Assembly (NCBI GenBank): GCA_021741245.1
Contig: JAIOYF010000006.1
Coordinates: forward strand, 1-64,000
From: Paracoccaceae bacterium
GTDB taxonomy: Bacteria > Pseudomonadota > Alphaproteobacteria > Rhodobacterales > Rhodobacteraceae
DNA: 64,000 bases
Direction: 5' to 3'
Below the pieces are notes generated by a model. The model made no database searches. It saw only the letters and a list, made by a program, of their open reading frames with translations, and was not told where the DNA came from. The position numbers and the translations under genes were made by a program. This document shows, piece after piece, positions 33,861 to 62,269 of this stretch. The stretch's first letter is position 1, and the number at the start of each line of letters is the position of its first letter.

Positions 33861-33944
33861 AAACTTTTTGCAAAAAGTTTGGGGGGCTGTCTGCCCCTCT
33901 CGGGCTACGCCCTCACCCCCCGAGGATATTTTCAAACAGATGAA
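33861..33944 (+). repeat. Dispersed intergenic repeat, copy A, with leading palindrome
   Basis: A perfect palindrome AAACTTTTTGCAAAAAGTTT (33861-33880) is followed by a G-rich/C-rich hairpin, then CTCGGG...CCCGAG pairing, and the core GAGGATATTTTCAAACAGATGA ending at 33944. It lies between the acyl-CoA dehydrogenase stop and the next gene. Copies B-F are listed separately. The hairpins could end transcription. Confidence 0.8.
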
Positions 33945-34074: not shown

Positions 34075-34127
34075 TTCATCTGTTCATAAATATCCTCCGG
34101 GGGTCCGGGGGTGGAAAACCCCCGGCC
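34075..34127 (-). repeat. Dispersed intergenic repeat, copy B (inverted)
   Basis: Read on the minus strand it gives GGCCGGGGGTTTTCCACCCC then GGACCCCCGGAGGATATTTATGAACAGATGAA (split here to stay short). It faces copy A across 130 bases. It is nearly identical to copy D at 59586-59642, including the GGCCGGGGG-CCCCCGG hairpin. Confidence 0.8.
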
Positions 34128-54059: not shown

Positions 54060-56099
54060 ATGAAAACGGTAGCGGATATGCCGGTTCGGGTTGTTGAAAA
54101 CCCCGATATGGGGATCGTGATGCCAGATGGTTGCCGCCTGTCGGCCCGTGTCTGGATGCCACAGGACGCCACGGAAACTCCGGTGCCTGCGGTTTTGGAG
54201 TATATCCCCTATCGCAAGCGTGACGGCACCTTGCCGAGGGACGAGATGATGCACCCCTATGTCGCGGGGCATGGCTATGCCTGCGTGCGGGTCGACATGC
54301 GTGGCAATGGCGACAGCGAAGGGCTGATGGAGGACGAGTATACCGCACAAGAATTGCAAGATGCCTGCGATGTGATCGCGTGGCTTGCGGCGCAACCGTG
54401 GTGCAGTGGGGCGGTGGGGATGATGGGCAAAAGCTGGGGCGGGTTTAACTGCCTGCAAACGGCGTTTTTGCAGCCCCCTGCGCTGAAGGCTGTGATCTCG
54501 GTCTGTTCGACCACTGACCGCTTTTCCGATGATATCCATTTCAAAGGCGGATGCCTTTTGGGTGAAAACTTTGGCTGGGGGGCGGTGATGCTGTCTTATT
54601 CCAGCCGCCCGGCCGATCCGGCATTGCGACCCGACTGGCGTGAGGATTGGTTGGCCCGGCTGGAGGCGGAGCCTTGGCTTGCGCCGCGCTGGGCGACCCA
54701 TCAGGCGCGGGACGGCTATTGGCAGCATGGGTCGGTCTGCGAGGATTACGCGCGGATGCAGGTGCCGATCCTGTCGTGGGGGGGCTGGGCCGACAATTAC
54801 ATGAACACGGTCGATCATCTGGTGCGCAACACTCCCGCCAGGGGGATCGTTGGCCCTTGGGTGCATCAATACCCGCACACGGCAGTGCCGGGGCCAGCGA
54901 TCGGTTTCTTACAAGAAGCGGTGCGTTGGTGGGATCGCTGGTTAAAAGGGATCGAGAACGGCGCGGATCAGGACCCTGCATACCGGGCCTATATGCTGCA
55001 TTCTGCCCCGCCGGATGCCAGTGCTGCACATCGCCCCGGCCATTGGGTGGCCGAGACCGCCTGGCCCAGCCCGCGTGTGCAGACCCGCGAGTTGCGCCTT
55101 GGGATGGCGAAGGGGGGCTGTCTGCCCCCCTCGGGCTTTGCCCTCACCCCCCGAGGATATTTACAAACAGATGATGCTGCGCCGTTCTCGCAGACCCTGT
55201 CGACACCGCAGCATGTGGGATTGAACGCAGGCGAGTTTTTCCCGATGGGGCTGAATGCCGAGATGCCGGGGGATCAGGCGGCAGAGGACGCCTTGTGCCT
55301 GTGTTTTGACGGGGAGATGCTGGCCGAGCCATTGGATTTGCTGGGGGCGGCCAGCGTGACGCTGACGGTGTCAAGCGACCAGCCCCTTGGCTTTGTCGTC
55401 GCGCGGCTTTGCGATGTGGGGCCAGACGGATCATCGGTCAGGATTGCGCATGGCATGCTGAACCTGTGCCACCGCCGCAGCTTTGCCGAGCCTGCGCCGA
55501 TGGCTCCCGGCGCGGTTGAGGAGGTGACCGTGACGCTGGACCAGATGGCGTATCGGCTTTTGCCCGGCCATCGGCTGCGGCTGGCCTTGTCCAACAGCTA
55601 TTGGCCGTTTGTCTGGCCCTCGCCTGCGGCAGGGGGGATCACGGTTTCGGCAGGGATCTTGAACCTGCCAGTGCATGCGGGCAGTGGCCCCGAGTGGACC
55701 CCGCCCGACCCCGAGGCCGCACCGCGATGGCACCACCGGGTGCTGCGCAAAGGCAAGGCCCGGCGCTATGTCGAACACGACCAGATCACCGGCACCTATG
55801 CGCTGATTGTCGAGGATGATCTGGGCGATGTCGAGAATCTGACCCATGGGCTGTGCACAGGCGAGACGATGACAGAGCGGTGGGAGATTCATCCAAACGA
55901 TCCCTTGAGTGCCGTTGCCATCCACACATGGGAGCAGCGCCTGTCGCGCGGTGATTGGCAGGTGCGCACCCAAGTCTGGGCCAAGATGACGGCAACTGCC
56001 TCGCATTTGTGCATGGAAGCGCGTTTGATCGCTTGGGAGGGGGATACGGAATTGTTCCGGCGCATCTTCAAGGATGAGGTTCCGCGCGACTTTGTCTGA
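54060..56099 (+). CDS. CocE/NonD (S15-type) serine hydrolase
   Basis: 679 residues. Alpha/beta-hydrolase core (about 20-310) with nucleophile S125 in MMGKSWGGFNC, the oxyanion region VLEYIPYRKRDG, and DMRGNGDSEG. The C-terminal X-Pro dipeptidyl-peptidase-like jelly roll is about 390-590 (LSNSYWPFVWPSP). Family members act as acyl-peptidases, beta-lactam acylases or esterases. It lies 105 bases ahead of a Tat-exported binding protein, so it probably acts on the transported compound after uptake. Residues about 351-371 are encoded by a dispersed DNA repeat (copy C), an insertion relatives should lack. Confidence 0.85.
   Translation: MKTVADMPVRVVENPDMGIVMPDGCRLSARVWMPQDATETPVPAVLEYIPYRKRDGTLPRDEMMHPYVAGHGYACVRVDMRGNGDSEGLMEDEYTAQELQDACDVIAWLAAQPWCSGAVGMMGKSWGGFNCLQTAFLQPPALKAVISVCSTTDRFSDDIHFKGGCLLGENFGWGAVMLSYSSRPADPALRPDWREDWLARLEAEPWLAPRWATHQARDGYWQHGSVCEDYARMQVPILSWGGWADNYMNTVDHLVRNTPARGIVGPWVHQYPHTAVPGPAIGFLQEAVRWWDRWLKGIENGADQDPAYRAYMLHSAPPDASAAHRPGHWVAETAWPSPRVQTRELRLGMAKGGCLPPSGFALTPRGYLQTDDAAPFSQTLSTPQHVGLNAGEFFPMGLNAEMPGDQAAEDALCLCFDGEMLAEPLDLLGAASVTLTVSSDQPLGFVVARLCDVGPDGSSVRIAHGMLNLCHRRSFAEPAPMAPGAVEEVTVTLDQMAYRLLPGHRLRLALSNSYWPFVWPSPAAGGITVSAGILNLPVHAGSGPEWTPPDPEAAPRWHHRVLRKGKARRYVEHDQITGTYALIVEDDLGDVENLTHGLCTGETMTERWEIHPNDPLSAVAIHTWEQRLSRGDWQVRTQVWAKMTATASHLCMEARLIAWEGDTELFRRIFKDEVPRDFV
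55113..55175 (+). repeat. Dispersed repeat, copy C, translated inside the CocE-like gene
   Basis: GGGGGGCTGTCTGCCCCCC, TCGGG-CTTTG-CCCTC, and the core GAGGATATTTACAAACAGATGA match copy A (33881-33943) with only a few differences. The reading frame stays open across it and yields GGCLPPSGFALTPRGYLQT. All other copies in the window are intergenic. Confidence 0.9.
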
Positions 56100-59585: not shown

Positions 59586-59642
59586 GGCCGGGGGGTTTCA
59601 CACCCCCCGGACCCCCCGTGGGATATTTATGAACAGATGAAA
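59586..59642 (+). repeat. Dispersed repeat, copy D, inside the transporter operon
   Basis: GGCCGGGGGGTTTCACACCC, then CCCGGACCCCCCGTGG and the core GATATTTATGAACAGATGAAAG. It sits between permease and ATPase genes of one operon. Nearly the same sequence appears inverted at 34075-34127. Confidence 0.85.
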
Positions 59643-61295: not shown

Positions 61296-61337
61296 TTTCA
61301 TCTGTTCTTAAATATCCCCGCCGGAGGCTTCCGCCGC
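61296..61337 (-). repeat. Dispersed repeat, copy E (inverted, shorter)
   Basis: On the minus strand: CGGCGGAAGCCTCCGGCGGG, then GATATTTAAGAACAGATGAAA. It lies in the 78-base gap between the ATPase and phosphodiesterase genes. The GGCGGAAGCCTCCGGCG stretch can fold. Confidence 0.75.
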
Positions 61338-62210: not shown

Positions 62211-62267
62211 GGGGGGCTTTGCCCCCCGCGCTGACGCGCTCCCCCCAGGATATTTGGAAACAGATGA
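62211..62267 (+). repeat. Dispersed repeat, copy F
   Basis: GGGGGGCTTTGCCCCCC hairpin, GCGCTGACGCGC hairpin, then CAGGATATTTGGAAACAGATGA. It fills the space between two convergent genes, where it could terminate transcription. Confidence 0.85.
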
Positions 62268-62269
62268 CG

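Follow-up and report, generated by a model that had tools for sequence, protein, structure and literature searches.

A copy of a dispersed, mostly intergenic DNA repeat is translated in frame within a gene for a CocE/NonD-family hydrolase in the stretch of Paracoccaceae bacterium DNA analysed here (64,000 nucleotides, positions 1 to 64,000 of contig JAIOYF010000006.1 in assembly GCA_021741245.1; hereafter the window), and the protein sequence it adds lies in a loop modelled with low confidence (residues 352-362, pLDDT below 50), as the original prediction had proposed. We favour, at a probability of about 0.58, the reading that this copy, copy C, is a tolerated, inherited and re-matched repeat working like the BoxC/PIT triplex repeats. 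Copy C would be a member of a DNA repeat of the bacterial family whose head may fold as an intrastrand triplex, with a purine arm, a loop and a pyrimidine arm ahead of a third run that lies parallel to the purine arm; a conserved tail comes after the head, and base pairs of the loop with the letters after the third run would cap the triplex. The copy would have entered the β-hairpin loop of the CocE-like hydrolase in frame on a single ancestral occasion, and the loop presumably tolerated it at near-neutral cost to the protein. From then on it would have passed down by inheritance, with loss in some lines, and would have been brought back into line with each genome's own repeat form; the most likely routes are template switching or gene conversion over short tracts, with other copies as partners while the strand was single.

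An in-frame repeat copy in a hydrolase gene

The hydrolase gene (54060..56099, forward strand) is recognized by its open frame, its domain hits and TIGR00976. Its product of 679 amino acids contains the Pfam domains Peptidase_S15 (residues 23-271) and PepX_C (residues 300-571), and the solved structures nearest to it in sequence are those of cocaine esterases. Copy C occupies nucleotides 55111..55175 of the forward strand, as found by repeat search, own-genome search and codon mapping, and is read as residues 352-372, the peptide GGCLPPSGFALTPRGYLQT beginning at residue 352 or nucleotide 55113; the 679-residue frame stays open through it, as had been claimed. The likeness to the intergenic copy A (33881..33943, forward strand; repeat search and copy listing), said to extend over 63 bases with few differences, was borne out by the repeat search of the window, in which 33881-33943 and 55112-55174 are 94% identical over 63 nt. 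A 28-nt pattern made of the third run and tail of copy C (up to three mismatches) has two matches in the window, a number found in none of 100 shuffles.

The position of the segment in the enzyme had been misjudged: it was placed between the hydrolase core and the C-terminal jelly roll, and residues 352-370 lie within PepX_C, near the start of this domain. In a structure model of the hydrolase (mean pLDDT 85.2, 31 sequences in the alignment) the repeat-derived segment sits between strands 340-350 and 365-369, and the block 351-360 has a mean pLDDT of 40, in keeping with the expected loop; in the model of the insert-free Gemmobacter ortholog L082 (overall 81.1, 23 sequences) the means are 94 for 341-350 and 88 for 351-360. 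To judge from the models, the repeat appears to supply a floppy loop of the hydrolase.

In copies of the repeat, a hairpin of purine arm, loop and pyrimidine arm is followed by a linker or a second hairpin, the third run, one to four letters and the tail region, which consists of GGATATTT, three loosely conserved letters and a tail such as AACAGATGAA. In copy C, parsed by script on the forward strand, arm 1 is the purine run AGGGGGG (55111..55117), the loop CTGTCTG (55118..55124) contains a TC complementary to the GA at 55153-55154, and arm 2 is the pyrimidine run CCCCCCT (55125..55131), the Watson-Crick complement of arm 1, which is also found by folding. A linker with an optional second small hairpin (55132..55145; script parse and folding) leads from arm 2 to the third run, ACCCCCC (55146..55152), which is the parallel complement of arm 1 with A replacing T. 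The conserved tail, GGATATTT-ACA-AACAGATGA (55155..55174, forward strand; copy comparison), ends in the same nine letters as the other 33 own-genome copies compared.

Besides copy A, the copy listing of the window contains intergenic copies with the TTTTCCA/GGA head type (34075..34125, reverse strand), with the TTTCACA/GTG head type (59588..59641, forward strand) and with a second hairpin (62211..62268, forward strand), as well as a copy with a short head type (61297..61335, reverse strand; outer limit approximate). This shorter head type, CCTCCGGCGGGGATATTT or CGCTCCGCGGGGGATATTT, has the same tail both in the window and in genomes G041 and G046, and in G041 several tails are paired in opposite orientation, their starts separated by about 28-63 nt. 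A search of its own genome with copy C gave 43 matches at E <= 10; counting the copy itself, 27 had E values below 0.01, and the best non-self match was at 2.3e-21. The tail pattern GGATATTTN{3,6}AGAWGAA has 51 matches in this genome and 0 to 277 in each of the 19 ortholog-bearing genomes, 18 of which are matched at least once (reversed control 0). In a 115-genome sample of the class it has none in the one other member of the family and 1-2 matches in 10 of 113 genomes of other families, which we ascribe to chance because the reversed control also matches in 2.

A slightly looser tail pattern yielded 53 distinct copies in the own-genome stretches examined, 5 of which were called in-gene; 3 of these 5 are real. 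Reading of the frames traced the in-gene placement of the copies at L127, L130 and L185 to start-codon errors of the gene caller. According to a simple purpose-made gene caller, the genes flanking the 48 intergenic copies are oriented plus/plus in 23 cases, plus/minus in 12, minus/minus in 12 and divergently in 1, and since just one of the 48 is divergent, the intergenic copies sit at the 3' ends of genes.

Arms, third run and loop of the repeat head

A Hoogsteen third strand, and with it an intrastrand triplex, requires mirror symmetry. A mixed-arm pattern with the third run left free matched in 21 of 149 genomes of the family, at 54 places (reversed control 0), and gave 49 distinct heads, 7 symmetric and 42 asymmetric. 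The third run mirrors arm 2 in 33 of the asymmetric heads (24 with T, 9 with A); one fits both mirror and direct copy, none the direct copy alone, and 8 fit neither. A script-only check of 84 copies from the own genome and from the loci of ortholog-bearing genomes found the hairpin in 72, and in 66 of these, the window copy included, the third run is the parallel complement of the whole arm. Arms of pure G account for 49 of the 72; in these, mirror and direct copy are indistinguishable and a long enough C-run suffices. Among the 23 asymmetric mixed arms the mirror fits 20 and the direct copy 3, with an A at the very start of the arm in 15 of the 23; of the other 8, 6 fit. Moreover, arm and third run are equal in length in 38 of the 49 pure arms, which was reached by none of 20000 shuffles. 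We rejected the possibility that the third run is an alternative Watson-Crick partner of arm 1, which predicts an identical run (direct copy alone 0/42, direct copy 3/23). The insert of L072 (same as L147) breaks the mirror rule. In a MAFFT alignment of the heads the runs are out of register.

The loop is antiparallel complementary to the letters after the third run in 36 of 39 pairs (shuffle mean 16.4, maximum 27 in 20000), as against 26 of 39 in a parallel control, which is high because GTG/CAC fits both orientations; these pairs drew on 67 rows, among which one CATGTCTG head is wrong, at least one has an extra leading G and some come from CocE inserts. Distinct pairs from the script-only parse are complementary in 12 of 14 cases (reached by 7 of 20000 shuffles), and 6 of the 8 pairs of two or more letters are complementary, a result that 209 of 20000 shuffles also attained. 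The hairpin of copies C and A is only moderately better than shuffles (z of -1.97 on one strand of copy C and -2.18 on the other, -1.45 for copy A) in a folding program that covers secondary structure alone, triplexes lying outside its model.

By their letters, the copies follow the triplet rule of intrastrand triplex repeats, with purine, pyrimidine and Hoogsteen runs in one strand, and we infer from this that the repeat head may fold as a triplex. Because the third run has T or A opposite A-T, an intrastrand triplex of the purine motif on the G-rich bottom strand would be favoured.

Coding copies in relatives and in xanthine dehydrogenase

The ortholog scan confirmed 382 relatives, of which the best 80 were kept, and a further set was taken from relatives. 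A profile built from 33 other own-genome copies and run in three rounds over the ortholog loci gave 22, 31 and 37 hits, the later rounds taking in in-gene hits. By this search, 26 of the best 80 of the 382 relatives have a detectable in-gene copy, always on the coding strand; all 26 have -YL at the same alignment columns and share site, strand and frame. An assembly error behind copy C, which had been raised as an objection, is unlikely, since these orthologs belong to other records and carry the copy at the same codons.

The expectation that orthologs lack about 20 residues here stood for other lineages, which are 16-18 residues shorter, and failed for the 26 of 80 with a recognizable copy. 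The window gene has 62 residues between its W and GEFFP anchors, within a full range of 42 to 81; most outer lineages (Gemmobacter, Cereibacter, Fertoeibacter and others) have 44-46, the outer row L100 has 50, and a nested Tabrizicola/Frigidibacter clade has 44-46; the insert is present in two further Tabrizicola rows, L048 and L055. The original prediction had named repeat-free orthologs with an equivalent segment as evidence against it, and by that rule orthologs such as L059, L061, L076 and L098, with no detectable copy and 55-61 residues, count as such; we read their segments as decayed copies. On a quick CocE tree of 85 rows, built with the linker excluded and with 28 of 82 inner branches weak, the detected state of the insert changes at least 16 times, decayed copies being scored as absent. 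Left out of the tree were 13 rows, namely L009-L013, L015, L016 and L019 (query or same genes), L022-L025 (distant) and L103 (N). Since orthologs carry copies and the state changes across the tree, the insertion in the CocE-like gene is old or recurrent and not private to its own genome. Two records deserve mention on their own account: L103 (CP059262.1), titled Exiguobacterium profundum, has a Rhodobacteraceae-type CocE gene (66%) with undetermined bases and is probably a mislabelled MAG, and in the CocE insert of the MAG L026 (L026:2151-2260) the tail is doubled (GGATATTTGGGAACA twice) and the middle part longer, with the frame kept.

Two more coding copies lie in linkers of xanthine dehydrogenase. 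The second in-frame copy, antisense to its gene, is in the small subunit XdhA (L108:2000-2083; gene G000:C20 57398-58810), between Fer2_2 (to 149) and FAD_binding_5 (from 190). By eye, it is at the same place in L165, L166, L167, L168, L171, L174 and L175 of the genus, looks decayed in L169 and L172 and is absent from L170 and L173; its three runs measure 6/6/6 in four rows, one of them from the own genome, 7/7/7 in L171, 6/7/7 in L167 and 8/7/7 in L174. The third in-frame copy is in the large subunit XdhB (L195:1451-1525; gene G000:C20 58816-61155), between MoCoBD_1 (to 375) and MoCoBD_2 (from 424). Again by eye, 11 of the 15 genus members compared, counting the own genome, have some form of it and 4 lack it, and the frame in which the repeat is read in L206 differs from that in L198 and L199. 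The XdhB linkers of some relatives are much longer. With the antisense copy in XdhA and the frame variants in XdhB, these linkers thus accept the repeat in several frames and in both orientations.

Nine letters of the tail vary between genomes, and the inserts were compared in these letters with the other copies at home in 18 of the 27 insert-bearing genomes (left out were L054, which gave no match, and L070, L052, L026, L027, L037, L049, L051 and L055). The tail form of the insert is present among the other copies of the same genome in 13 of the 18, at shares of 0.25-1.00, and is unmatched at home in 5 (G041, G043, G044, G045 and G059). It is the minority form at home in G046, G047 and G057, and in G047 and G057 the home copies are on average more distant from the insert than foreign copies. 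The summed own share is 9.30 (9.27 once two self-matches are removed), as against a permuted mean of 1.68 and a maximum of 6.75 in 100000 permutations, for a P of 1e-5 with kinship ignored. Without the self-matches (G046:C5:66262 and G048:C431:10441) the own shares are 15/39 in G046 and 13/22 in G048, and the sum goes from 9.298 to 9.265, which exceeds even the highest permuted sum (6.745); the home shares of G046 and G047 are those among the matches listed.

The sisters L067 and L071 (99% support) are the clearest pair, each with the main tail form of its own genome: L067 has the tail CAAAGATGA, found in 8 of 10 at home, and L071 the tail AACAGAAGA, found in 6 of 7. In L079 and L086 the linker DNA is identical at 42 of 42 positions, with 72% identity at third positions elsewhere, and in L062 and L054 at 49 of 54, with 73% in the remainder of the gene. 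In other pairs the linker is not better conserved than the gene (L071/L072 0.67 vs 0.77, L052/L092 0.75 vs 0.80, L059/L063 0.81 vs 0.89). As L072 shows, a head can fail to go along with its tail, and exchange in short tracts or selection acting on the tail may explain this. From these comparisons, the protein loop appears to keep to the version of the repeat found in its own species.

Alternative readings, known repeats and significance

Why would a translated copy keep step with the untranslated copies of its genome? Repeated fresh insertion into a hotspot, with losses, in place of one inherited and re-matched copy, is a possibility that we take seriously and still doubt: it would account for the different frames at one XdhB linker (L206 vs L198 and L199), for the varying head types among CocE inserts and for the 16 or more state changes on the CocE tree (with decayed copies counted as absent and 28 of 82 inner branches weak), but site, strand and frame are identical in all 26 detected CocE copies, and the tail has decayed in the same way in relatives (L032 with L038, L048 with L049). 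A protein that binds the tail and shifts its preference lineage by lineage would make all copies, coding ones too, follow by selection and not by copying, and the tail form is indeed matched in inserts with an uncommon head as well (L072, L057). However, this would need selection on one coding site in many species, which makes it quite unlikely in our judgement; we know of no tail-binding protein for the repeat.

Unlikely, too, is that the repeat acts as RNA, its copies being structures of the 3' UTR or terminator type (H-type pseudoknots in which the third strand is C-rich), with the coding copy kept in mRNA as the same element. The position of the 48 intergenic copies at gene 3' ends (23, 12, 12 and 1 in the orientations given above) speaks for such an element, and complementarity of the loop is likewise expected of an RNA pseudoknot, yet the strand preference is weak (23 vs 12), the XdhA copy is antisense to its gene, the A found in the third run of 9 of 33 heads makes no standard triplet of the pyrimidine motif, and the window has no Rfam family at the gathering threshold except a tRNA. 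We think it very unlikely that the segment serves the enzyme as a loop or strand with a function of its own, its likeness to the repeat being kept for the sake of the protein (the G-Y-L strand 365-369). Whereas G-x-L is common to insert-free orthologs and the structure model has a strand at 365-369, both length (42 to 81 residues) and sequence vary between the anchors, residues 352-362 fall below a pLDDT of 50, the repeat-core DNA is conserved beyond the remaining gene in several pairs, and the repeat in the XdhB linker is read in one or the other of two frames, depending on the species.

The reading that we prefer, a tolerated and re-matched repeat of the triplex type, can be set beside several known systems. 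In the sections of Holder et al. 2015 (PMC4666352) considered here, A(T)AT and GGC triplets are listed for the purine motif, TM_ECO is a class II repeat with the motif 5'-CCCTCNCCC... that is always intergenic in E. coli MG1655, and Rhodospirillum photometricum is named as rich in G/C triplex motifs, the database comprising 5246 genomes and plasmids; no covariation test of the third strand was seen in these sections. The words Rhodobacter, Ruegeria, Paracoccus and Alphaproteobacteria are absent from the main text of that paper, and copies of the Rhodobacteraceae repeat may well stand uncommented in its database. As far as the same sections go, our repeat is like BoxC/PIT/TM_ECO in being G/C-rich, dispersed and bacterial, with three runs that fit the triplex rule. 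Unlike TM_ECO (class II, 5'-Y-R-R), it reads R-Y-Y on the top and R-R-Y on the bottom strand and falls outside the CCCTCNCCC class; if a triplex, it would be of class I on the bottom strand (class III on top). It further differs from TM_ECO as described there in its conserved tail, its loop complementarity and its coding copies, 3 of the 53 own-genome copies being coding whereas TM_ECO is always intergenic in E. coli MG1655.

The Rickettsia palindromic elements (RPE), according to the parts of PMC2229807 and PMC3733652 considered, are both intergenic and in frame inside conserved genes, where they are apparently tolerated, and our repeat shares this distribution; by description they differ from it, being listed there with terminal inverted repeats, and no triplex rule appears in those parts. 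The GTAG/CGTC REPs with tyrosine transposases are described in part of PMC3733652 as short, structured and mostly downstream of genes, with some in genes, all of which applies to our repeat. No GTAG or CGTC tag was noticed by eye in its copies, and Y1_Tnp exceeded the cut-off in 0 of 16 repeat-bearing genomes (a weak match in G057 scored 21.5 bits against 23), the control being found in 5 of 14 known genomes; we therefore rejected REP/RAYT mobility for this repeat, which no Y1 transposase accompanies as a candidate copying enzyme. ERIC/RU, Correia and other MITE-type repeats are given in the portion of PMC2229807 considered as about 100-170 bp long, most with inverted termini, and with reported in-frame fusions, and our repeat is like them in also occurring in frame in coding sequence. 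No inverted termini were noticed by eye in its listed copies. At the gathering threshold of Rfam the window matches no family except a tRNA. In the open-access literature, with subscription papers mostly uncovered, we found no account of such a repeat in Rhodobacterales.

Neither repeats in frame within genes nor triplex repeats in bacteria are new in themselves. Tentatively, and with somewhat less than even confidence, we suggest in addition that the repeat is a capped triplex repeat whose coding copies are live members, so that homogenisation of a non-coding element across the genome would rewrite, in frame, the loops of at least three enzymes, with the structure of the element helping to keep the frame. 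The structure itself would do so because equal runs that change together (6/6/6 in the XdhA copy of L165 vs 7/7/7 in that of L171) add a whole codon. The third run covaries with the arms across many genera, and this offers an evolutionary test of a triplex. If true, loops that track their genome's non-coding repeat would be a route for selfish DNA to edit enzymes.
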